Positions 1-61,707 of a stretch of 64,000 bases of DNA are shown in pieces. The stretch is from Flavobacteriales bacterium (GTDB lineage Bacteria > Bacteroidota > Bacteroidia > Flavobacteriales_F > PHOS-HE28). Location: positions 379,830-443,829 of the forward strand of contig JAMLHB010000003.1 of assembly GCA_023957375.1 (NCBI GenBank). The letters are read 5' to 3'. The position numbers and the translations under genes were made by a program. Every line of letters starts with the position of its first letter. Position 1 is the stretch's first letter. Below the pieces are notes generated by a model. It saw nothing but the letters and a program-made list of their open reading frames with translations. It searched no databases and had not been told where the DNA came from.

Positions 1-3000
1 TTGCGCCACGTACCGTTGGCTTGGGCCGGGCTGATGTACGGCAACAGGCTCACGGGGGGGCCATCGGAACAGAACGCGGCCCAGCCCTCATGGCCGGGGT
101 TCGGTGCCGCTGTCACGTTCACGGTCACCACGGCGGAATCCGAGTTGCAGCCCAACGCACCGGTAAGCCGGTAGCGGAATTGGAAGGTGCCCGCGCCAGT
201 GCCGTTGGCATTGAAGTACTGGCCGGTCACCTGCCCGGTGCCGTCCAGGTCGATCCAATCGCCGCCCGGCTGCGGCGTGCCGCCGAGCCCGGTGAACAGG
301 TTCACCTGTGTTTCAGAGCTGCACACCGCCTTGGTCCCATTGTTTCCCGCATCCAAAATGGGAACGATGGTTACCCGCACCGTGGCGGTATCGGCCGCAC
401 AGGTGCCATTGGCCGGCACCATGTAGCGGAAATCATAGTCGCCCGGCGGAAGTTGCGTGGGCGTGCCGGGATTGAAGAAATGCGAGCTCAGCCGCCCGGT
501 GCCGTCCAGGTCGAACCACGTGCCGTTCAAGTCCGGCGTGCCGTTGAGCGCGTCGAACAAGTCCACTACGGCTTGGCCGCTGCAAATGGTGACCGTACCA
601 CTGATGCCCGCATCAGGTGCTTGCGAAACATTGACCGTCACCGTGGCACTGTCCGGTGCACACGGTGCGGTTCCGGTCACTTTGTACTTGTATACGAAAG
701 ACCCGGCAACAGATGGGATGAACACACCATTGCTTGAGCTTCCCCCCGGGCCCGTCCACGTACCGCCGACATCCGGGGTTCCGTTCAAACTATCAAACAA
801 GTTTACCGCCGCATCGGTGCTGCACAGCGCAATGGTATTGCTGGTACCCGCCACGGGCCTGCGGTGTTGTGTAACAGTAACCACTGCAGTGGCATTGGCA
901 CACGGGCTCAAGCCTACCACGGTGTAGGTGTATCCGCCCTGTACGGCCGAAGGCCCCGGAACGTATGAACCATTGTTGGGGGCATTGCTCGGATCCTTCC
1001 AGGTGCCGCCCGCGTCCGGCGTTCCACCGAGTTGGGCAAACAGGTCCGCCGGGGCATCATCACTGCACACGGTAACCGCCCCGTTCGTTCCGGCCTTCGG
1101 GGCCGTGTTCACTTGAATGGTCACCTTGCCCGTGTCATTTGCGCACGGGGCCAGCCCATTGACGATGTACCGGTACACCCCTGCCGGGGTGGTGCCCGGT
1201 GTGAACGTGGCCGGTACGGTGGTATTGGCCGCATTGATCCATGTGCCTCCCACGTCCACCGGCGCACCAAGGATGGTGCCCATGTTGAAGGGCGGATTGG
1301 TGCTGCACTGCACGGTGTTGCCATCAATGCCGGCGCGCGGGGCCTGGTTCTCCACCACCTGCACAAGGGCGGACACATTGGGGCAGGGCGTATTGCCCGC
1401 CACCGTGTAGGTGTAGTTCCCGGCAGGGTGGGCGGGATTGGCCGGTTGGTAGATTCCTCCAGGCAGGGCACCCCCGCCGGGTTTCGTCCATGTGCCGTCC
1501 GCCTCCGGTGTGCCCGTGAGGTGCGTGAACAGGTCTTCGTTCGGGCTGGTGCTGCAAAGGGTAACGGACCCGTTGCCGCCTGCATCAGCCGCAGCTACCA
1601 CGTTCACCGTAACGGTTGCCATGGCATTTGCACAAGGTGAAGTTCCCACCACCGTGTACGTGTACACCCCTGCCGGGCTGGTTCCCGGCGTGAAACTGCC
1701 TGAAGGGACGGGGCCGCCCGGCCCGGTCCAAGTTCCGCCTACTTCCGGTGTGCCGCCCAACAACGGGAAAAGGGGAAAGGCGGCATCGCTGCTGCACACT
1801 GCATGGGTAACACTGGTGCCCGCCTGGGGGGCGGTGACCACGGAAACGGTAACCGTGGATACCGCCGGGGTGCAGGGCGCAATACCATTGACCGTGTATG
1901 TATAGGTGCCAGGCATGGACGTGCCGGGCACGAACGTTCCCGTTGGGAAAGGCAGGTTCGTGGGGCCGCGCCATGAGCCGCCTGCGGCAGGGCTGCCGCC
2001 CAACTGGGAGATCAGGGTGAAGGGAGCGTCAATGGAGCATTTGGCCACACTGGAGCTGGTGCCGGCGTTGGGCGCAGTACGCACCGTAACTGTCACGGTC
2101 GCCGTGGCAGGATCGCAGGGGGCCTGCCCGGCCACATGGTACACGTACGCACCGCCGGGGTCCGTGCCCGGCTGGAACTGCCCGCTGTGCGGCCCGCCCG
2201 GACCGGTCCACGTGCCGCCTGCATCCGGCGTGCCGCCCAAGGAATCCCGCAGATTGAACACCGCCCCATCGCTGCAGACCGCCACGGCACGGTTCGCGCC
2301 GGCATCCGGTGCTTCGCGCACCGTGATGGTGAGCACGGCGGAGGCATCGGCGCAGGGTGGATTGCCTGAAACCGTGTAGGTGTACGGCCCCGGCGTGGAG
2401 GTGCCCGGTGTAAAGGTGCCCGTGCTGGCCGGGGACCAGGTGCCGCCTATGTCCGGCGTGCCGCCCAACTGGGCCAGCATGTTGAAGGGCGCATCATCGC
2501 TGCACACCGTGATGCTGCGACTGCTGCCGGCATCGGGCGCTGCCACCACCGTGACCACCACATTGGCCGATGCGTTCGGGCAGGGAGGCGTACCGTTCAC
2601 GGTGTACACGTAGGTGCCCGCTGCGGAAGTGCCCGGGGTGAACAGGTTGCTCACCGGCGCGCCGCCCAAGGTCCACGCACCGCCTGCATCCCGTGTGCCG
2701 GTCAGTTTGGTGAAAAGGTCCACCACGGGGCCGTTGTCGCACGTGTTCAGCGCTCCATTGCCACCGGCGGAAGGCAGGGTGTTTACGGCGATCGTCAGCG
2801 TGGCCGTGGCATTGGCGCAGGGCGGTGTTCCCGGCACCGTGTAGGTGTACACACCGGGACTACTGGTGCCGGGAGTAAATGTGTCACTTCCGCCAGGGGA
2901 CCACGTGCCGCCAGATTGCGGTGTGCCGCCCAATTTGGAAAGCATACTGAAGGGGGCCTCGTTGCTGCACACGGTAATGCTGCTGCTGGTGCCTGCATTG

Positions 3001-3809
3001 GGCGCGGCCACCACCGTGACCACCACATTGGCCGATGCGTTCGGGCAGGGAGGCGTACCGTTCACGGTGTACACGTAGGTGCCCGCTGCGGAAGTGCCCG
3101 GGGTGAACAGGTTGCTCACCGGCGCGCCGCCCAAGGTCCATGCGCCGCCTGCATCCGGCGTTCCGGTGAGCTTGGTGAAGAGGTCCACCACGGGGCCATT
3201 GCTACAGGTGTTCAGTGTGCCATTGCCGCCTGCGGAAGGCATCATGTTCACCGCCACGGTCAGCGTGGCCGTTGCATTGGCACAGGGCGGAGTGCCCGGC
3301 ACCGTGTAGACATAAATACCCGGCAGGCTCGTCCCGGGGGTAAAGGTGTCACTTCCGCCCGGGGACCAGGTGCCACCTGGCTGCGGCGTGCCGCCCAATT
3401 TGGAAAGCATGCTGAACGGCGCATCGTTGCTGCATGCCGTGTAAGTGGCATGGTTGCCCGCATTGGGCGCGGCCACCACGCTAACCGTGACCGTGGCACT
3501 GGCCACCGGCGGGCCGGGCACGGTGTAGGTGTACACGCCCGGTGCATCGGTGGCGGGGTCAAAGGTGCCGGGGTGCGCCGCAGGCCCGCTCCACGTGCCG
3601 CCGGGGTCGGGCGAGCCGCCGAGGTAGGTGATCAATTGCACTGCGGCGCCGTTGCTGCACAGCGTTGCCGTGCCGTTGGTGCCCGGACCGGCCAGCATAA
3701 CCGCAACGGGCAGCGATGCGCCATCTGCCCGGTTGGCCCCCAAGCCGGTGAATGGGCAGCCCAAAGACAGCGCTAACGTGACAGTCAACAAAACTTTGTT
3801 CACAGTCAT
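1..3809 (-). CDS. Large secreted repeat protein, adhesin-like (3' end outside window)
   Basis: The reverse strand is open without a stop from the ATG at 3809 to the window edge, about 1269 codons, so the gene is truncated by the window. The start gives a signal-peptide-like MTVNKVLLTVTLALSLG. The rest is about 16 tandem units of 77-78 residues. Each unit has a CS.. entry, an L-x-x-LGGTP-x-x-GGTW core, an F-x-PGT turn, a YTYTV strand and a PC-x-x-A-x-A-x-V end. This style of repeat is known from extracellular T9SS proteins of Bacteroidota. A C-terminal sorting domain is expected beyond the left edge but cannot be seen. It is last in the minus-strand adhesin cluster, 211 bases after a PorP/SprF gene. 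The role (adhesion or gliding surface protein) is inferred. Numerous overlapping open frames on both strands are shadows of this repeat. Confidence 0.85.
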   Translation of the reverse strand, partial: MTVNKVLLTVTLALSLGCPFTGLGANRADGASLPVAVMLAGPGTNGTATLCSNGAAVQLITYLGGSPDPGGTWSGPAAHPGTFDPATDAPGVYTYTVPGPPVASATVTVSVVAAPNAGNHATYTACSNDAPFSMLSKLGGTPQPGGTWSPGGSDTFTPGTSLPGIYVYTVPGTPPCANATATLTVAVNMMPSAGGNGTLNTCSNGPVVDLFTKLTGTPDAGGAWTLGGAPVSNLFTPGTSAAGTYVYTVNGTPPCPNASANVVVTVVAAPNAGTSSSITVCSNEAPFSMLSKLGGTPQSGGTWSPGGSDTFTPGTSSPGVYTYTVPGTPPCANATATLTIAVNTLPSAGGNGALNTCDNGPVVDLFTKLTGTRDAGGAWTLGGAPVSNLFTPGTSAAGTYVYTVNGTPPCPNASANVVVTVVAAPDAGSSRSITVCSDDAPFNMLAQLGGTPDIGGTWSPASTGTFTPGTSTPGPYTYTVSGNPPCADASAVLTITVREAPDAGANRAVAVCSDGAVFNLRDSLGGTPDAGGTWTGPGGPHSGQFQPGTDPGGAYVYHVAGQAPCDPATATVTVTVRTAPNAGTSSSVAKCSIDAPFTLISQLGGSPAAGGSWRGPTNLPFPTGTFVPGTSMPGTYTYTVNGIAPCTPAVSTVTVSVVTAPQAGTSVTHAVCSSDAAFPLFPLLGGTPEVGGTWTGPGGPVPSGSFTPGTSPAGVYTYTVVGTSPCANAMATVTVNVVAAADAGGNGSVTLCSTSPNEDLFTHLTGTPEADGTWTKPGGGALPGGIYQPANPAHPAGNYTYTVAGNTPCPNVSALVQVVENQAPRAGIDGNTVQCSTNPPFNMGTILGAPVDVGGTWINAANTTVPATFTPGTTPAGVYRYIVNGLAPCANDTGKVTIQVNTAPKAGTNGAVTVCSDDAPADLFAQLGGTPDAGGTWKDPSNAPNNGSYVPGPSAVQGGYTYTVVGLSPCANATAVVTVTQHRRPVAGTSNTIALCSTDAAVNLFDSLNGTPDVGGTWTGPGGSSSNGVFIPSVAGSFVYKYKVTGTAPCAPDSATVTVNVSQAPDAGISGTVTICSGQAVVDLFDALNGTPDLNGTWFDLDGTGRLSSHFFNPGTPTQLPPGDYDFRYMVPANGTCAADTATVRVTIVPILDAGNNGTKAVCSSETQVNLFTGLGGTPQPGGDWIDLDGTGQVTGQYFNANGTGAGTFQFRYRLTGALGCNSDSAVVTVNVTAAPNPGHEGWAAFCSDGPPVSLLPYISPAQANGTWR
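2380..3309 (-). repeat. Tandem duplication of a 465-base two-domain unit
   Basis: Bases 2380-2844 and 2845-3309 are two adjacent copies of a 465-base block, each coding for two consecutive 77-78-residue repeats. The second domain of each block is nearly identical between copies (for example around 2550-2680 and 3015-3145), while the first domain has diverged more. The period is a multiple of three, so the frame is kept. Confidence 0.8.
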
Positions 3810-7900: not shown

Positions 7901-10900
7901 GCGTAAGGGCCGGGACACAAGCCGGTGGCTTGCGGCGTGTTCTGGCCACCGCCGGGCTCGGGCGTCCACACATAGCCGTATGGTGCGGTACCTCCCGTGG
8001 GCCCGACCGTCGCAGTACCATCGCAACTGCCGTGGCAGGCAGTGGGCGTGGTGCTGAGGTTCGGAAGGATCTGTTGGGCCGGAGCCACATGGGCCGTGTC
8101 AAGGCTGAGGCATCCGCTGGCATTCACCACCTGCACCAAATAATCACCCGTGCACAGTCCGCCCAGGGTATCCTGTGAAGCAAGCGCATCCCCGTCCATG
8201 TTGAACCAAGCCACGGTGCATGGCGCATCGGTGCAATTGTAGGTCACCGCAACGGTGCCGTCGCAGGTGTTGCCGCAGGTGGTTTGCCCGTCCACCGCCC
8301 CGATGACCTCACCATCAGCATCTTGCAAGGCCACTGTGGCCACTGCGGTGCATCCGCTTGCATCGGTCGCCGTGGCCGTGTACACCCCGGCGCAAAGCCC
8401 GGTGAGCGTGTTGCCTGTTCCCACCGGCCCGTTCTGGTCGGACCATTCCACCGAAATGGTGCCGGTTCCTCCTGACACGGTTACCGTGGCGGTGCCGTCG
8501 CACACTGCGCAATGGCTGGGCGTAGTTGCAGGCACGATGGTGATCGCAGCGGGTTCCTGCACGGTGTAGTTGAGGTCAACACTGCAATTATTGCCGTCGG
8601 ATACCAGCACCGTGTAGGCTCCTCCGCACAAGCCGTTGATCACGGCACTACCCTGCTGGCCAGCCGGGGGCTCCGGCGTCCATGCATATTGGTACGGCCC
8701 GGTTCCGCCCGTGGTGTTCAGTGCGATGCTCCCGTCGCACTGGCCGGCACAACTGACCTCGTTGATCTGCGCATCCACCACCAAGGGATCCGGTTCGGTA
8801 ACGAGCACACTGAACGTGGCGCTGCACCCGCTCATCTGGTCCTCCACCACCACATCGTAGCTGCCGGCACACAGGCCCGTGACTTGTGGCGTGCCTTGCC
8901 CGCTCCCCGGTTCAGGGACCCAACTGAAAGAGAAGGAACCCGAACCGCCATCAATGCCGATGGTGGCCGTGCCGTCGCACAGTCCGGCACAGCTCACCGG
9001 GCTGGTGCCCATGTTGCCCACCAGCGGCGCTGGCTCCGCCACCAAGGCGGTATCCACGGTGATGCACCCGGCCGCATTGGTGACGGTGACCAAGTAGCTG
9101 CCTGCGCACAAGTCGGTGAGCTGGTCGGTGCCGCTGGCCAAAAGATTTCCACCCATGTCGGTCCACTCCACGGTGCAGAGCGGAGCACTGCAGATGTATG
9201 CCACGGCTACTGCACCGTCGCATTCACCGGGGCAGCTGGTGAGCCCATCCGTGGTAGTGATCACCTCGCCGTCCTCATCGCCCACCGGCACTGCCACCTG
9301 CGTGGAGCAGCCCGAGGCGTCGCTGACGACCACGGCGTAAATGCCCGCGCACAGGTCCGTGAGCAGGCTGTCGGTGGTGGTGAGGTTCAGCGGCGGCCCC
9401 CAGGTGAACAAGTATGCGCCGGTACCGCCTGCCACATGCAGCTGGGCACTTCCGTCGCATTGGCCGCAATGGCTCTGCTCCACGTCGGCGGTAACGGTGA
9501 TCGGATCAGGTTCCGCCACGGTGTAGGTGGAATCGAACGTGCAGCCGTGCGCATCGGTGATCGTCACGGTCCAATCGCCCGCGCACAGCCCGCTCACCTG
9601 GTCCGTACCCTGGCCCACCGCCGGTTCGGGCTGCCACACATAGGTCAACGGTGCACTCCCTCCCATGGCGTCCACATCGATGGCTCCGTTGCACTGCCCC
9701 GCGCAGGCCGGACCCGTAATGGCGGCGGTGGCCGTGATGGGCAGCGGTGCGCTGATGACGAAGACCTGCACGGCTTGGCAGTTGTTCGCATCGGTGACCT
9801 CCACCTGGAAATAACCCACGCACAACCCGCTTACCTGATCGGTGCCCTGGCCCTGCGCCGGCTCCGGCGACCAGTGGTACGAGAATGGTGCCATGCCTCC
9901 GGTCACGGCCACAGTAGCCGTTCCGTCACACGAACCGGCGCAGTTCACAGGCGTTGCGGTCACCACCAATTGGAGGGGTGTGGGCAGCGGCACCTCCACC
10001 GGCACCACCAGCTCGCATCCGTTGGCATCCTGTACGGTAAGTGTGTAATCCAGGGCGGCGCAAAGCCCCGTGGCCGCTGGGGTGCCTTGGCCTCCACCGG
10101 GTTCCGGCGCCCAAGTATACTGGTAGGGACCAACACCCCCCGCAGGGTTCACCGTCGCAGTACCCGTGCATGGCGCCGTACAAGCTTCCGGGGTTACCGT
10201 GAGATGCGGTTCGATGGGATCAGGCCCGTCGATGGTGAAGGCCACCGTGGTCTCGCACCCGGCCGCATCCACCACGTGCAGGCTGCCCGGGCCCGCGCAC
10301 ATACCGCCCGCGCCGTTGGTGCCCTGCCCGTTGCCCGGCTCGGGCGACCACGTGTAGGTGAACAGCGGCGTGCCGCCGTCCACGATCGCCGTGACCGAAC
10401 CGTCACACGCTCCGGCACAGCTTACCGGGGAAGGCGTAGCATACACCGTCATCGGGGAAGGCTCGCTGATGGTGAAGGTGAACGTGGTGGCGCACCCGCC
10501 GCTGGTGATGATCACCGTGTAGTCGCCGGCGCACAGGCCCGTGGCCTGGGGCGAGGTGTTGCCGGGAATCCCCGGCCACTGGTACGTGAAGGTGCCCGTG
10601 CCGCCCGTGGGCGCCAAGGCAATGCTGCCGTTACAAACACCGCCGCAACCCGACGGCTGCACCGTGGCGTTGGCCTGGACCGGGGCGGGCTCATCAATGG
10701 TGAAGGCCACTGTGGTCTCGCACCCGGCCGCATCCACCACGTGCAGGCTGCCCGGGCCCGCGCACATACCGCCCGCGCCGTTGGTGCCCTGCCCATTGCC
10801 CGGCTCGGGCGACCAGGTGTAGGTGAACAGCGGCGTGCCGCCGTCCACGATCGCCGTGGCCGAACCGTCGCACGCTCCGGCGCAGCTTACCGGTGAGGGC

Positions 10901-13900
10901 GTGACGTACACCGTCATCGGGGAAGGCTCGCTGATGGTGAAGGTGAACGTGGTGGCGCACCCATCGCTGGTGATGATCACCGTGTAGTCGCCGGCGCACA
11001 GGCCCGTGGCCTGGGGCGAGGTGTTGCCGGGAATCCCCGGCCACTGGTATGTGTAGGTGCCCGTACCGCCCGTGGGCGCCAAGGCAATGCTGCCGTCACA
11101 GACGCCGCCGCAACCCGACGGTTGCACCGTGGCGTTCGCCTGGACCGGGGCGGGCTCGTCAATGGTGAAGGCCACCGTGGTCTCGCACCCGGCCGCATCC
11201 ACCACGTGCAGGCTGCCCGGGCCCGCGCACATACCGCCCGCGCCGTTGGTGCCCTGCCCGTTGCCCGGCTCGGGCGACCACGTGTAGGTGAACAGCGGCG
11301 TGCCGCCGTCCACGATCGCCGTGACCGAACCGTCACACGCTCCGGCACAGCTTACCGGGGAAGGCGTGACATACACCGTCATCGGGGAAGGCTCGCTGAT
11401 GGTGAAGGTGAACGTGGTGGCGCATCCGCCGCTGGTGATGATCACCGTGTGGTCGCCGGCGCACAGGCCCGTGGCCTGGGGCGAGGTGTTGCCGGGGATC
11501 CCCGGCCACTGGTACGTGTAGGTGCCTGTGCCGCCCGTGGGCGCCAAGGCGATGCTGCCGTTGCAAACGCCCCCGCAATCCAGATCTTGCACGGTGGCAT
11601 TGGCCTGGACAGGTAACGGCTCATCCACGTTGAAAGCAACCGTGGTTTCACAACCTGCGGCATCAACCACTGTCAGGCTGCCCGGGCCGGCACAGAGGCC
11701 GTTCACGCCATTGGTTCCCTGTCCATCGCCCGGCTCGGGCGACCACGTGTAGGAGAACAAGGGCGTGCCGCCGTCCACGATCGCCGTGGCGGAGCCGTCG
11801 CACAACCCGGCACAGCTCACCGGGGAAGGCGTGATGTACACCTCCAGCGGTGCGGCTGCCTGGATGTTGTAGTTCTGTACCTGCTGGCAGCCGTTGGCGT
11901 CGGTCACCGTCAGCATCCACGGCCCGGCGCACAAGCTGCTGGCCGTGGCCGTACCCTGCCCCACCGGCGGTTCCGGTGTCCATACATAGGTGTAGCCGGG
12001 CGTACCACCGCTTGCCGTACCCGTGGCCATGCCGTTGCACGTGCTTGCGCAGTTCAGGTCGGTTTGCGATGGCGTGACCACGATCGGGGGCGGCTCGGAA
12101 ATGCTGAAGTCCAACGTGTTCTCACAGGTGCCGTTCGACACGGTGACCTGCCAATCACCAGCACACAGGCCGGTAACAGCAGGGGTGCCATCACCAGCGG
12201 GATCGCCGGGCAGCCAATTGAAGGTGAGGCCCGCAAGGTCGCCGCTGAGTGTGGCCGTGCCATCGCAGGCCCCGGCGCAGACCAAGTCCGTTACGGTCAG
12301 CACAGGCTCGATGGGCGGCGGGGCGTTGATGGTGAAGTCGAGCGTGGTGTTGCACGCTCCGCTGTTGACCTGCACCTGGTAGCTGCCTTGGCAGAGGTCG
12401 GTGGCCGAAGCGCCGTTACCGGCCGTGGAAGGCGTCCACACATAGGTGTAGGTGCCGTTGCCGCCCGATGGCGTCAGCGCGATGGTGCCGTCGCACACCC
12501 CGGCACAACTGGCATCGCTCCCTGTTGAGGCCACGGTAACGGGTGGCGGCGCATCAATGGTGAAGCTCGCGGTGGCCTGGCACCCGTTGGCGTCCTCCAC
12601 CAGCACGCTGGCCGGACCGGCGCACAGCCCGCCCACGCCTGCTGAATTCTGCCCGCTGCCCGGTTCGGGGGTCCAGGTATAGGTGTACAACGGCGTGCCA
12701 CCATCCACCACCGCTTGCGCGGATCCGTCACATTGATCCCCGCAACTGGCCGGAGAGGGGGTGACGAACACCTCGATCACGGCCGCAGCGGCGATATTGA
12801 ACGAAACCACGGTTTGGCAACTGGTGGACTGATCGGTGATGGTGACCTCGTACACGCCAACGCACAGTCCGGTGGCCGTGGCGCCTCCGTTGCCTCCGCC
12901 CGGTTCGGGCGACCAACTGTACGTGAACGGGCCTGCGGCACCTGACGGGTTCACCGAGGCCGTGCCATTGCACACGTTGCCGCAGCTGGCATCCACGTGG
13001 GATGCATTGGGGATGATCGGCGCGGGTTCGTCGATCTGGAACTGCAGGGTGGTATCGCATCCGTTGGCATCCTGGATCGTCACCGTGTACGCACCGGCGC
13101 ACAGCGCCGATACCGAGGGGCTGTTGCCCCCGATCGGGGTTGCCGGCAATTGGACCCACTGGAAGCTGAAACTGCCGCTTCCGCCCACCGGGGCCACTTC
13201 CGCCGCACCGTTGCAGCCCCCCGCGCACTGCACATCCGTGATGGCCAGGTTCGGCTCGATCGGCTGGATGGGGTAGTTGAAGGTGGTATCGAACGCGCAC
13301 CCGTTGGCGTCGGTGACATGCAGGTTGTTGCTGCCCGGGCAAAGCTGGTTGAAGCTCGCGCCCGTGCCGGCACCGTTGTTCCACGAATAGTCGTAGCCCG
13401 GTACGCCGCCCACCGCGAACGCGGAGGAGGAGCCGTTGCACACACCCGCGCACGTGGGCGGGGTCACGCCCATGAAGATCACGCTCAACAACGCCGGGTC
13501 CGTTACTTGCACCGTGGTGGCGCAGCTCACGCCCTGCCCTTGGTCGGTGACGATCACGATCTGGTTGCCCGGGCATACGTTGTTCCACGTGGCGGTGGAC
13601 GGCCCCCCGATCCAGCCATAGGTGAACGGCCCGACCCCGCCGCTGACCACCACGCGCACCTGGCCGTTGCACACCCCGTGGCAGCTCACGCCGAAACCGT
13701 TGTAGTTGCTCATCAACTGGGCATCGATCGTGAATGGTGTTTGGCCGACGCCCGTGGCGCAAACGTTGATGGCCCGCCCGCTTTCCCGTTGAACGGCACT
13801 GCCATCCCACGCTTGCGGCAAAAGGCCCACGAGCAAGCGCGATGTGCCCGGGTCCACGGTGCCGGGCGGCAACACCGGGGCCTCGTCCAGCAACACCACC

Positions 13901-31419: not shown

Positions 31420-32864
31420 CAATGTCATTAAGTTAAGGATTTTCACAGCGCTGGCCGGGAGTTTGGCATGCAGACCGGCTTTCGGCAGGTGCGGTACTTG
31501 TCACGGTTGCGGGGATAATGCCTGCCGGGCCTGATGGGCACAGTGCTGCTGAGGAACAACTTCTTCAGGGCATCCAGTAGTTGCTCGGGATCCTCTTCGA
31601 TGAAGATGCGCACCATCTCATTCTTCAAGTACCCGAAGGTGACATTGTTGTTGATCTTGTATGCGTACTTCCTCTGGCGGTGCTTGGCGGGCAGTTCCTC
31701 CTGCGCCTCGCTCACCAGCAGTGCGTGGATGTTGGACATGAACAGCGCACAGTGAAAGTCCTGCCGGACCACCTGCGGGGTGTGTCCGGTGAACTGCTCC
31801 ACGCGTATGATGTTCTTTGCCACGTTGTAGAACCGCTCCACGCCCCAGCGCAGGTGATAGAGGTCCTTGAACATGGCGGTGGGATACCGTTCCGGGTCGA
31901 TCAGGGAGGTTAACAGGACCTCCACTTCGCCGTCATCGAGCAATACCTTGACCATACGCACGGCCACGCGACGGTCCTTGTCCTTCCCCCAGGATCGAGG
32001 TGTGTTCTTTCCCGGCCCTTTTTGGATGACCAGGCTCTGTAGGTCACTGCCCATGAAGTCCCGGACATGCCGGTCATGGGTGTGCTTGCAGCGCATCAGG
32101 TATTCCGCCTGGCGATCTTCCAAGGCCTTGATGAGCGCGAACCCGGGATAGCCCCGGTCGTAGATCACCAGGTCGCCTTTGCCGCAATGGGGCAAATGCT
32201 CCAGTGCCAAGGTCGGCTCCCCCACGGCATAGGGTGCCAACAGCCCGTCGATCACCAAATTGTTGAGCACATCGTACAATACTGAGCACCTTGCCTTGGC
32301 CCCCACCACCCCGTGCTGATTGGAGGAACCGCCGTAGATTTCCTGTAGCTCATGGTTCTGTGGCAGGTCCAGCGTTGAGCCGTCGGTGGCCAGCAGGCGC
32401 ATCCCTTCCCAGAGCAGCACCCGTTCATCATTGTCCGTATAGAACTCGGTGTTGAGTACACGCACGAGCTCCCGGAACACCAAGGGATCGACCTTCTTGC
32501 GCCGTTGGTTGAATGCACTGGCCGTCACATTTTGCACCCCATCGGCGAACGAGCGCATGAAAGCCGTCAGGTCGACCTGAAGGCTTCGCCTGGACAGGTT
32601 CATCATAAAGAGGATCACCTTCGGAAAGGGCATCTTGCGCTCGCGGGTGAAGTCCTTGTTTGACAGGCGGAAGGTCTCCTTCAATCCCGAGCTTGCCAAA
32701 GTAGACTTCAGCAATATGAGAATGTGCGTGTTGGCCTTTCTGCTCATTGGCATGGGTTTGTCCGGCAAGGACAGACCTGGCAACAAAGACAGGAGCCGGT
32801 TGGTGATCAACCTTCCAACATCCTCGATCTGAAAACCTCGGGATCCCTTAACTTAATGACATTG
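31420..32864 (-). mobile_element. Intact IS4-family insertion sequence with 10-base target duplication
   Basis: 1445 bases bounded by 19-base perfect inverted repeats (CAATGTCATTAAGTTAAGG at 31420-31438 and its reverse complement at 32846-32864). The direct repeat CCCGAGCGGG flanks both sides (31410-31419 and 32865-32874) and is the target-site duplication. The element carries one transposase gene and interrupts the metG-lepA intergenic region. Perfect ends, intact reading frame and unmutated duplication indicate a recent insertion. Confidence 0.93.
31443..32810 (-). CDS. IS4-family DDE transposase
   Basis: 455 residues. Catalyses cut-and-paste transposition of the surrounding element. The DDE triad is visible: first Asp in LLATDGSTLDLP, second Asp in DLVIYDRGYPG, and Glu in the signature Y-x2-R-x3-E-x6-K (YHLRWGVERFYNVAK), the IS4 YREK motif. 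The N-terminal part carries a helical DNA-binding region (residues ~40-110). The C-terminal tail is basic (RPGRHYPRNRDKYR). The frame is undamaged and fills nearly the whole element, so the transposase is probably active. Earlier or later Met codons in the first 22 residues are possible starts. Confidence 0.93.
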   Translation of the reverse strand: MITNRLLSLLPGLSLPDKPMPMSRKANTHILILLKSTLASSGLKETFRLSNKDFTRERKMPFPKVILFMMNLSRRSLQVDLTAFMRSFADGVQNVTASAFNQRRKKVDPLVFRELVRVLNTEFYTDNDERVLLWEGMRLLATDGSTLDLPQNHELQEIYGGSSNQHGVVGAKARCSVLYDVLNNLVIDGLLAPYAVGEPTLALEHLPHCGKGDLVIYDRGYPGFALIKALEDRQAEYLMRCKHTHDRHVRDFMGSDLQSLVIQKGPGKNTPRSWGKDKDRRVAVRMVKVLLDDGEVEVLLTSLIDPERYPTAMFKDLYHLRWGVERFYNVAKNIIRVEQFTGHTPQVVRQDFHCALFMSNIHALLVSEAQEELPAKHRQRKYAYKINNNVTFGYLKNEMVRIFIEEDPEQLLDALKKLFLSSTVPIRPGRHYPRNRDKYRTCRKPVCMPNSRPAL

Positions 32865-34788: not shown

Positions 34789-34871
34789 GGTGCAATACCA
34801 AGGTATGCGGGGACTTCGGGGCGGCGGCCCTGCGGGAGCGTCTATTGGCACGACCTGGTATCTGGCTTCAT

Positions 34872-34879
34872 TATCTTTG
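34872..34879 (+). promoter_or_regulatory. -7 promoter box of the DUF433/DUF5615 pair
   Basis: TATCTTTG is a perfect -7 element only 4 bases before the ATG at 34884. Transcription would start at or within a few bases of the start codon, so the message is probably leaderless. Confidence 0.6.
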
Positions 34880-34883
34880 GAAC

Positions 34884-35123
34884 ATGGATTGGCGCAAGTA
34901 CATCGTTAGCAACCCCAAAGTCCTTTCCGGCAAGCCCACGGTAAAGGGTACGCGCTTGTCCGTGGAGTTCATCCTGGGCCTGATGGCCAAGGGCTGGACC
35001 GAGCAGACACTTTTGGAGAATTATGAGCGCTTGAAGCCGACCCACATCAAGGCGATCTACGGGTTCATGAGCGAGAACATCGCGTCGGGCCGTTTTGCGC
35101 GGCCACTTGGGGAAGCCAAATGA
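34884..35123 (+). CDS. DUF433 antitoxin-like protein
   Basis: 79 residues from the ATG at 34884 (an upstream in-frame ATG at 34845 would place the promoter box inside the gene). The sequence MDWRKYIVSNPKVLSGKPTV, then KGTRLSVEFILGLMAKGWT, is the characteristic DUF433 pattern, a small winged or helix-turn-helix-like protein. DUF433 genes are commonly paired with DUF5615 PIN-like toxins, and the next gene is exactly that with an ATGA overlap, so antitoxin and autorepressor is the likely role. Confidence 0.85.
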   Translation: MDWRKYIVSNPKVLSGKPTVKGTRLSVEFILGLMAKGWTEQTLLENYERLKPTHIKAIYGFMSENIASGRFARPLGEAK

Positions 35124-35473
35124 AATTTCTTGTCGATGAATGCGTGGCAAAGGCCTCCGCCTTGCATTTGCGCATGATCGGCCATGATGTGCTGCGTATC
35201 GGCACCGACATCCGAATACCGGACGATGCAACCATTTTGACATTTGCCACGGCGGAACAACGCACCCTTATCACGCACGACCAGGATTTCGGCGAGTTGG
35301 TGTTCAACAAGAAACACCGGGCCCCGTTCGGGGTGGTCCTGTTTCGCTATGAGCCTGCCACGCCGGATGAAGTGGCCAAGCGGCTTGTTGTCATGCTCCG
35401 TTCCGGCCTGTACGCGTTCGAAGGATATCTGACCGCCGTGGACGAGGGTAAGGTGAGGCAACGTGCATGTTGA
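35120..35473 (+). CDS. DUF5615 PIN-like toxin
   Basis: 117 residues. The N-terminus MKFLVDECV supplies acidic residues Asp6 and Glu7, and ITHDQDFGEL supplies Asp54 and Asp56. These are acidic positions of the PIN-like fold in this family, expected to bind metal for RNA cleavage. Its start overlaps the antitoxin stop by four bases. Family and pairing indicate a type II toxin-antitoxin module, VapBC-like. The RNA target is unknown. The pair sits between lepA and a non-autonomous mobile element, a usual location for such modules. Confidence 0.85.
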   Translation: MKFLVDECVAKASALHLRMIGHDVLRIGTDIRIPDDATILTFATAEQRTLITHDQDFGELVFNKKHRAPFGVVLFRYEPATPDEVAKRLVVMLRSGLYAFEGYLTAVDEGKVRQRAC

Positions 35474-35540
35474 CATCAGTCCCGGCGTAGGGTCCCGAGG
35501 TAGCCTTCGCATGGCTACAGTTACTGAAAGTGGGAGACCC

Positions 35541-35979
35541 CAATGTCATTCAGTCAAGGGAGCATTTATCAACGGATCATGGTCCGTAGGCTGGAAGCCT
35601 GCGATGTTGTCGTTCCACAGGCTGGAAGCCTGTGCCACAACCGTGTTCTTCCTCCACAGGCTGGAAGCCTGTGCTACAACCGTGTTCTTCTTCCACAGGC
35701 TGGAAGCCTGTGCTACAACCGTGTTCTTCTTCCACAGGCTGGAAGCCTGTACTACAACCATGTTCTTCTTCCACAGGCTGGAAGCCTGTGCTACAACCAT
35801 GTTCTTCCTTCACAGGCTGGAAGCCTGTGCTACAACCGTGTTCTTCTTCCACAGGCTGGAAGCCTGTGCTACAACCGTGTTCTTCTTCCACAGGCTGGAA
35901 GCCCGTGATACGACAGTGCTCTTCCTCCACAGGCTGGAAGCCTGTGCTACAATCTTCCTCCCTTAACTGAATGACATTG
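35541..35979. mobile_element. Non-autonomous (MITE-like) element with IS4-type ends around a palindrome array
   Basis: 439 bases bounded by 20-base inverted repeats: CAATGTCATTCAGTCAAGGG on the left, and on the right the reverse complement of CAATGTCATTCAGTTAAGGG, one mismatch apart. The right end matches the right end of the IS at 31420-32864 at 19 of 20 positions. The interior has no transposase and consists almost wholly of a 39-base palindromic tandem array. No clean target duplication is visible (TGGGAGACCC versus GCGGTGGCCC). Confidence 0.75.
35582..35953. repeat. Ten 39-base tandem repeats, each with a palindrome
   Basis: Units start at 35615, 35654, 35693, 35732, 35771, 35810, 35849, 35888 and 35927, with one degraded unit before. 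Each holds CACAGGCTGGAAGCCTGTG (8-base arms AGCCTGTG around GGA) followed by a CTACAACCGTGTTCTTCTTC-like linker. Because 39 is divisible by three, several frames on both strands stay open and encode repeats such as STGWKPV and TGFQPVEEE. These are unlikely to be real proteins. The sequence is not a CRISPR array because the linkers are as conserved as the palindromes. Confidence 0.92.
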
Positions 35980-36211
35980 GCGGTGGCCCCGGGGACAGGG
36001 GTCGATGACGCCGCTACGGTGACAGAAATTGGCCGCTGCGCGCATTCCCGCAGCCGCCCCATACCGCCTGCATGACAGGCGTTATGCCCCTCAACACCCA
36101 AGCGGCATCGGCGTGCAGGAGCAGTTTCTCCTTGGCGGCCCTTGTAACGTCCGAGAACCATTTGCATCGAATGACTGTTGATTGAACAAAAGTTCCAATT
36201 TCAAAACCACA
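35980..36211 (+). other. Leader region before the DUF4142 gene, no gene seen
   Basis: 232 bases between the mobile element and the next gene. No reading frame of substance, no clear promoter pair and no stable hairpin could be supported. Confidence 0.4.
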
Positions 36212-60103: not shown

Positions 60104-61114
60104 CTACCCGCCCGGCCATACGAACCGGGCCGATCCCCTTCCTTCCCTTGACCAAACCGTTACCACATACACACCCATGCCGAGGTTCCCTATGCGCAAA
60201 TCGGCCACCCTACCAACTGCAGTTACCCGGAATTCCTGGATCAACCTGCCCTGTGCATCGATCACCTTCGCCCTGAGCGGACCGTTGGGGATCCCGTTCA
60301 ACCGAAGACTACCATCGGTCTGTGGAAAGACGTTCAACCGGACCTCACCAATGCCAGAGGGGCCTATCGCCACCACCGAAACATCATCGTAGTAGTAGTA
60401 GCAGTAAGAAGCAATTCCAGTTGGTGCAACAGTACCATTCACCTGGGAGCTGTCCAGGAATGATCCGATGATCATGTACCGTTCATTGCCCGAGGCAACG
60501 AAGGTGTCGGCTATATAGGTCCAATCCTCCGCATTCGTGAGGTATTCATGATCGGGATCCATCAGGTCCACCTGTGGCTGGAGGTACAGCGTCCTGTAGT
60601 CGTTCACATGCATGCTGTCCGGCCCGAAGTATGCGCTGATCCGGTCGGTGGCCAAGTTGAACCCATCTGCCCGGCTATAGTACAACGATACGGCATAGGC
60701 CGTTCCGGCGTCCAGGTCTTGCAGCAACCGGACCATGAAGTACTCTTTCGTATCCGAGCTGTTCGCGCCATACCAGTGGTAGGCACCGGCAAAGCGGGTT
60801 CCGGTGTGCGCATACTGCCATCCGGATGCCTGCACATCGGGATCGGCCGGATCCCACACGATGCCGCATTGCCGCACCAGGTCACATTCGTAGATGTCCG
60901 GGGTGGCTGTGGTGGGATTGAACCATGGAGGTGCCGTCATCCGCACCGGATCGTAGGTATCGCAAAGAGCCGTATCCTCGAAACTCGGATTGGGCACCAG
61001 GTTCTGTGCCGTCGCCATCGCGGCGAGGGTTGCTGCCGTTACCAAGGGGATGGCGCGGGCAGCGATGTTGGTCAAGGAAGAAAGGAGTGCGTTGAGCATG
61101 TTGTTCTTCTCCAT
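60104..61114 (-). CDS. Secreted protein with T9SS type A-like C-terminus
   Basis: 336 residues from the ATG at 61114 (61099 also possible). The more distant ATG at 61276 would need a charged, unlikely leader. A signal peptide (IPLVTAATLAAMATAQ) is followed by NLVPNPSFEDTALCD, a beginning known from carbohydrate-binding-like jelly-roll domains of Bacteroidota secreted proteins. Supporting strands include GTRFAGAYHWYGAN, YFMVRLLQDLDAGTAYAVSL and CYYYYDDVSVVAIG. The last ~75 residues (VFPQTDGSLRLNGIP, AKVIDAQGRLIQEF, MGVYVVTVWS) resemble the type A sorting domain. The gene is 22 bases upstream of the S74 protein and probably in its operon. Function unknown. Confidence 0.8.
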   Translation of the reverse strand: MEKNNMLNALLSSLTNIAARAIPLVTAATLAAMATAQNLVPNPSFEDTALCDTYDPVRMTAPPWFNPTTATPDIYECDLVRQCGIVWDPADPDVQASGWQYAHTGTRFAGAYHWYGANSSDTKEYFMVRLLQDLDAGTAYAVSLYYSRADGFNLATDRISAYFGPDSMHVNDYRTLYLQPQVDLMDPDHEYLTNAEDWTYIADTFVASGNERYMIIGSFLDSSQVNGTVAPTGIASYCYYYYDDVSVVAIGPSGIGEVRLNVFPQTDGSLRLNGIPNGPLRAKVIDAQGRLIQEFRVTAVGRVADLRIGNLGMGVYVVTVWSREGRGSARFVWPGG

Positions 61115-61286
61115 TCTTGTTCGCCACATCTTTGGCACATGGAAGATTAACTTCCGCTTCCGGTCCGCTTGCGGCACCGGGTGCTCACCGCCCCGCCCGG
61201 CAAGCAGCTTGTTCCGGGCGGGGTCGGTACCTTTGCTCAGCTTTTGTTCATCTTCTTTCGCGAGTTGGTGGGACATGAGCGACCAA

Positions 61287-61314: not shown

Positions 61315-61368
61315 TTATCGTCGGGGCAACACCATGCCCGTTACCTTGTGGGCTTTTGAAAATTGTGT

Positions 61369-61482
61369 GGCCTGTTGGCCTGTTGGCCTGTTGGCCTGTT
61401 GGCCTGTTGGCCTGTTGGCCTGTTGGCCTGTTGGCCTGTTGGCCTGTTGGCCTGTTGGCCTGTTGGCCTCTTGGCCTGTTGG
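61369..61482. repeat. 8-base satellite, ~14 copies of GGCCTGTT
   Basis: GGCCTGTT is repeated from 61369 to 61482 with one substitution (GGCCTCTT near 61465-61472). It lies in an 834-base region without an intact gene. Eight-base units (24 bases is eight codons) keep frames open and create artefact proteins of the form ACWPVGLL. Confidence 0.95.
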
Positions 61483-61707
61483 CTGAAGGCTGAGGCCCCC
61501 AAAGCCTGGCCGTCCTTTGAGTGCCTCAGGGCGTCGGTTGGTAAAACGCGTAAGCCAAGCACGATGTTCCTGTGGAATTGCGCGTTCATGATAGAACGAA
61601 TGTAACGGAATTTATGTGGAAAACATGGATGGTTGATAAGTCATGCCATCTGGACGCAAGGCCCGCTATGGATCGGAGATTTTGGTTGGCGAGACCCTGC
61701 AAGCAGT

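Follow-up and report, generated by a model that had tools for sequence, protein, structure and literature searches.

A putative IS4-subgroup MITE with paired REP-type hairpins and its apparent in-place tandem expansion in a Flavobacteriales genome

In a 64,000-nucleotide stretch of a Flavobacteriales genome (hereafter the window), an initial annotation described a MITE-like element at positions 35541-35979, in which ten palindromic 39-base units were thought to stand between IS4-type ends. The locus raises the question of what these hairpins are, and how an array of them came to lie between the ends of a transposon. The ends, the array and the coordinates of this 439-base element were all confirmed, and the features of the element and of the neighboring insertion sequence are as follows (coordinates in the window).

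31420..32864, minus strand: IS4-family IS (IS4 subgroup by its ends), 1445 bp, with 10-bp duplication CCCGAGCGGG
31443..32810, minus strand: IS4-family DDE transposase, 455 aa, with a Y-x2-R-x3-E-x6-K motif in YHLRWGVERFYNVAK
35541..35560, plus strand: left terminal inverted repeat CAATGTCATTCAGTCAAGGG, from inverted-repeat and 20-mer searches
35585..35603, no strand assigned: hairpin 1, REP-type, CGTAGGCTGGAAGCCTGCG, corresponding to the partner hairpin in the 133-bp parent MITE
35616..35952, no strand assigned: tandem array of 39-bp period with nine hairpins CACAGGCT-GGA-AGCCTGTG
35960..35979, minus strand: right terminal inverted repeat CAATGTCATTCAGTTAAGGG, from the same searches

The two ends agree with each other at 19 of 20 positions and with the ends of the IS at 17-19 of 20, which upholds the proposal that they match the nearby IS; when extended, they form a 23-nt inverted repeat (35540-35562 and 35958-35980) that is 96% complementary. 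Allowing at most three mismatches, the 20-mer CAATGTCATTCAGTTAAGGG matches exactly four places in the window, namely the two ends of the IS and the two of the element, and had no match in 100 shuffles of the window. Nothing but the ends is common to the element and the IS, so a shrunken IS was rejected and the interior is indeed not a reduced transposase gene. No coding role for the element could be supported.

The IS4 subgroup comprises elements of 1400-1650 bp with ends of the form -AATR--------WTW----, duplications of about 10 bp (10-13) and a YREK motif (PMC2266710). The IS at 31420-32864 agrees with this description in its length of 1445 bp, its ends CAATG...TTA, its 10-bp duplication, its YREK motif and its transposase model, the 455-aa protein being matched by NF033592 (E = 6.1e-56, above the cut-off) and also by PF01609. 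A second copy of the IS, likewise flanked by a 10-bp duplication, occupies C1:438320-439764 of the same genome and encodes an identical protein (C1:438374-439738); these are the only two copies of the transposase in the genome. The MITE shares the end type and the duplications of approximately 10 bp with the IS4 subgroup and differs in having no transposase, and MITEs are not mentioned in the text of PMC2266710 on the IS4 family. At position 11, the IS ends have A and many of the MITE ends C. The IS is a candidate source of transposase for the MITE in trans.

Inside the ends, the tandem repeat finder TRF reported a period of 39, with 8.7 copies and 93% matches, over 35613-35952, and the hairpin 19-mer occurs at 10 plus-strand sites compared with 0.03 expected in shuffles. 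Only nine hairpins (35616-35946), each of 8+3+8 bases, are held in the 39-bp register. The tenth, hairpin 1, is diverged and off register, beginning 31 bp before the array; the count of ten units therefore stands for nine, whereas the first hairpin is the partner hairpin of the parent MITE and not a unit of the array. In the minus-strand reading, most array hairpins are preceded by GTAG and hairpin 1 by GGTC. The array units differ from one another at several positions, so the array is not brand new and an assembly artefact is unlikely.

The flanks of this copy, TGGGAGACCC (35531..35540, plus strand) and GCGGTGGCCC (35980-35989), agree at 6 of 10 positions and thus give no convincing target duplication, and the locus is rearranged relative to two other genomes, G031 and G032 (G-numbers denote the genomes compared, G000 being the window's own, to which all contig coordinates refer unless another is named). 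Because of this low agreement and the rearrangement, the focal copy cannot by itself prove transposition. A base-exact empty site at this locus was unobtainable, as the same neighbors enclose other small genes in G031 and G032. These genes, located exactly where the focal genome has the MITE, look like further toxin-antitoxin genes, and the DUF433 and DUF5615 gene pair at 34845-35473 of the window also resembles a toxin-antitoxin module. On the same strand, the DUF5615 gene upstream ends with its stop codon 67 bp before the element, and a DUF4142 gene lies downstream.

We searched the whole genome (3.83 Mb, four contigs) for relatives of the element and found 13 related copies with the same end type, the focal one included: eight of 133 bp and five with extra hairpins. 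The eight 133-bp copies are 80-92% identical to each other, and all are non-coding and carry two hairpins; their consensus order is end, hairpin 1 (CGCAGGCTTCCAGCCTGCG), 12 bp, hairpin 2 (CACAGGCTGGAAGCCTGTG), end. At most copies with two recognizable ends, the 10-bp target duplication agrees at 9-10 positions, with 10 of 10 at C1:213422, C1:319230, C1:631581, C2:168952 and both IS copies, and 9 of 10 at four more. These short, non-coding, multi-copy sequences with ends matching a resident full-length IS have the features of a MITE family, in which duplications of about 10 bp are found for the family as a whole but not at the focal copy. That inverted ends and array met by chance at this single place, which the lack of a clear duplication at the focal copy might suggest, is hardly credible, since the end type, the hairpins and their order are shared by thirteen related copies.

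Sites without the element were found in orthologous regions of congeners for three members of the family, at C1:669671 in G032, C3:106950 in G028 and C1:213422 in both G005 and G012. Both neighbors are conserved in all three regions; the breakpoint could not be placed to the base because the intergenic DNA has diverged. Two other copies with arrays, C1:571404 and C1:1769906, gave no match spanning the site in the genus. A paralogous stretch at C1:76130 provides a near-empty site for a 243-bp element at C1:1131158, and G005 has an 88-bp relative with one hairpin, whose duplication was read by eye as 9 of 10. Taken together, the ends, the duplications, the dispersed copies and the three element-free orthologous sites suggest that the family may be mobilized in trans, and it is plausible that the resident transposase could do so, as had been proposed. 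Given an identity of only 80-92%, most copies appear to be old and do not prove current mobility.

What the hairpins are is suggested by their occurrence elsewhere. Hairpins with the same GGCT-TCC-AGCC core flank RAYT-like genes in several congeners (CACAGGCTTCCAGCCTGTG in G027 and CACCGGCTTCCAGCCGGTG in G064, G029, G066 and G008), as do related stems in G014, G026 and G018. The RAYT-like genes contain Y1_Tnp (PF01797), and their best NCBIfam match is the REP-associated tyrosine transposase model NF047646 (E = 2e-9, below the cut-off). The tag preceding the hairpins varies: besides the GTAG and GGTC of the focal element, the RAYT-flanking ones have GTCC, GGGA or GGGT. In an alignment of eight hand-chosen variants, 98% of the cells are paired and both sides have changed in 4 of 8 pairs, and a multi-copy short palindrome whose stem is kept by compensatory changes, as seen among these eight variants, is what is expected of a REP. 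Since the hairpin flanks RAYT genes in congeners and its stems covary, it is, as judged from these comparisons, a REP-type element enclosed in a MITE of the IS4 family.

This finding also brings up the possibility that the hairpins were moved independently by a RAYT, in the manner of a REPIN, and that the IS4-type ends are coincidental or secondary. In addition to the RAYT-flanking hairpins of the same class in congeners, the two hairpins of the MITE face each other as in REPINs, and hairpins without ends exist: G027 has a bare CACAGGC hairpin array at C90:6903-7171, and five hairpins of the window's genome, all of the CACCGGC variant, are away from IS4-type ends (among them C4:16549, C2:106065 and C2:423209). 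However, 34 of the 39 hairpins in this genome (at most two mismatches) have an IS4-type end no more than 450 bp away, so that the possibility of array units existing mostly without the inverted ends, anticipated at the outset as an argument for chance association, was borne out only in part, by such bare hairpins and arrays. Moreover, the 133-bp sequence is conserved from end to end, the target duplications adjoin the ends, and no close cognate RAYT was detected in the window's own genome, where the best match has 36% identity over part of the protein. The inverted pair of a REPIN is present, but as most of the hairpins lie between IS4-type ends and a close RAYT was not found, independent RAYT-driven movement seems quite improbable. 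The distant RAYT-like gene (C1:1078333-1078719) was rejected as the cognate, considering its partial 36% match and its position near a different hairpin class (GCCAGACGGGAGTCTGGC); it possibly belongs to a second REP system in this genome.

A second hairpin class, with a GCGGG stem and a CGTC tag (compare PMC3733652), shows the same association, with 15 of 17 matches at IS4-type ends by hand count and one of the remaining two, C3:648128, adjoining a weak end. An element with IS4-type ends at approximately C1:1866169-1866335 contains both classes, the CGTC-tagged GCGGG hairpin and CACAAGCTTCCAGCTTGTG. In this genome, most hairpins of the two classes, GGCTTCCAGCC and CGTC-tagged GCGGG, lie inside or next to IS4-type ends. 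At C2:153343-154203, tandem units of approximately 159 bp directly adjoin a 133-bp MITE copy; every unit carries CGTC-tagged hairpins and has an IS4-type end as its terminus. Matches to AACAGGCTGGAAGCCTGTT in several relatives occur once per genome, many in similar context, and are probably not mobile repeats.

How the array arose can be approached from the expanded members of the family. Extra hairpins, produced by tandem duplication of the second hairpin or of the pair, are present in five of the 13 copies:

Focal copy: 39-bp period, nine units
C1:571404: 36-bp period, three units
C1:1769906: 39-bp period, three units, junction GTGCTGTCGTTC instead of GTGTTCTTCTTC
C2:84325: hairpin spacing 31-39-31, pair duplicated
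C2:6544: hairpin spacing 31-31

Because these copies differ in period and junction, they point to several separate tandem duplications, and because the genome has a family of two-hairpin MITEs, the array is best seen as repeated in-place amplification of a hairpin already carried. The suggestion that the array was the cargo of a mobile unit is not supported by such expansion of a two-hairpin element. Tandem duplications of this kind ordinarily arise by slippage or unequal exchange at a hairpin, and we infer the same cause for the growth seen here.

It could still be argued that the array is selected cargo, acting as an RNA stabilizer, a transcription-end signal or a protein-binding array and spread by the IS4 ends. 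The RNA of the element folds far better than shuffles (z = -7.4), the stems are conserved across variants with compensatory changes, and the 67-bp distance from the stop of the same-strand upstream gene would suit such a role. Intrinsic terminators (a GC-rich stem followed by a T run) were found at 0 sites in the element compared with 0.9 expected in shuffles, which rejects a terminator array and leaves the proposed spreading of transcription terminators unsupported; nor did any Rfam family match up to E = 1, which rejects a known structured RNA. Most copies have only two hairpins, no second array of the focal size exists in the genome, and the expansions vary between copies as slippage would produce. 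We therefore regard selected cargo as unlikely, although less so than movement of the hairpins by a RAYT.

Our preferred reading, to which we assign a probability of roughly 0.8 on the basis of sequence comparison, is that the element belongs to a non-autonomous IS4-subgroup MITE family whose parent form contains a REP pair, and that one hairpin of the focal copy was tandemly expanded in place. The parent would be a 133-bp sequence with 20-bp ends, two facing REP-type hairpins and nothing coding. A REP pair would have come between two IS4-type ends, capture being the presumed direction, and would since have been copied chiefly along with the MITE, by insertions that left 10-bp target duplications and with the IS4 transposase presumably acting in trans. 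Tandem duplication of the hairpin unit would have followed in several copies, probably through replication slippage or unequal recombination that the hairpin promoted, and the focal copy would have expanded furthest, to nine units. The array probably has no dedicated function of its own, and the element is most likely selfish, with its RNA structure incidental.

The spread of REP palindromes is attributed to single-strand RAYT transposases and that of MITEs to DDE transposases. The element described here would link these two classes of bacterial repeats, which are normally treated apart. If REPs survive the loss of their RAYT as passengers of MITEs, this would offer a testable explanation of why REP families and RAYT genes correspond only patchily. 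It also provides a clear case in which hairpin arrays appear to have grown several times, in different ways, within copies of one small transposon.

The view that such an element is not a described class has to be narrowed, since there are known mobile elements that contain tandem modules. BrickBuilt of Porphyromonas gingivalis, likewise from Bacteroidota, is a MITE of intergenic regions whose inverted ends resemble those of a resident IS and whose interior is a tandem array with a varying number of units (PMC4596501). It differs in its 23-nt units without spacers, its IS5-type ends, its irregular small duplications and the presence of both ends in only 4 of 19 copies, and the portion of PMC4596501 consulted mentions no link to REPs or RAYTs. 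BOX of Streptococcus pneumoniae similarly has two ends (boxA and boxC) around variable tandem structured boxB modules (PMC3049150), but its sequence is unrelated, its ends and host are different, and that paper does not describe its modules as REP hairpins. REP, REPIN and RAYT systems (PMC3733652, PMC2817692, PMC3116915) share with our element the short opposed palindromes, the RAYT-flanking location in congeners and the GTAG before most array hairpins, whereas hairpins inside IS4-type ends, 10-bp duplications and the lack of a close RAYT in the genome set it apart. In the literature searched, which left most subscription papers outside, neither the end nor the hairpin sequences returned anything relevant, and an IS4-family MITE with RAYT-type REP hairpins amplifying in place was unreported.

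The same ends extend well beyond this genome. An exact scan located them in Bacteroidota, where IS4-type ends are common, as well as in Bacillota, Gammaproteobacteria, Spirochaetes and others, among the matches listed. In a set of 47 elements with 90-400 bp between such ends, some of which have no clear duplications so that chance or decayed pairs may be included, the mean longest inverted-repeat arm was 11.0 compared with 6.7 in control windows, and the interiors folded better than random windows of the same locus in 40 of the 47. For 40 insertions with duplications of at least 9 of 10, the duplicated 10-mers were more self-complementary than the background (74 vs 51 of 200 pairs), which agrees with the reported insertion of the IS4-family element ISRm22 into REPs (PMC1525189). 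The REP is an outside target in that case and lies inside the ends in ours, the shared feature being the association of the IS4 family with REP palindromes. Targeting of REPs might, speculatively, be a route by which they came near, and then between, IS4-type ends. A tentative generalization, which we find possible but doubtful, is that REP-like palindromes have been captured by IS4-type ends on repeated occasions and are spread by them from then on; a REP class could in this way outlive its RAYT by traveling with a DDE transposon.

Other repeats were also observed in the window. Approximately 14 copies of the octamer TGGCCTGT lie between ORFs at 61368-61483, upstream of the minus-strand ORF at 60104-61276, and this repeat is likely length-variable. 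Two sets of 465-bp tandem repeats are present at 2431-3479 (2.3 copies) and 10232-11842 (3.5 copies); since this period is divisible by three, a repeated protein domain may be encoded there.
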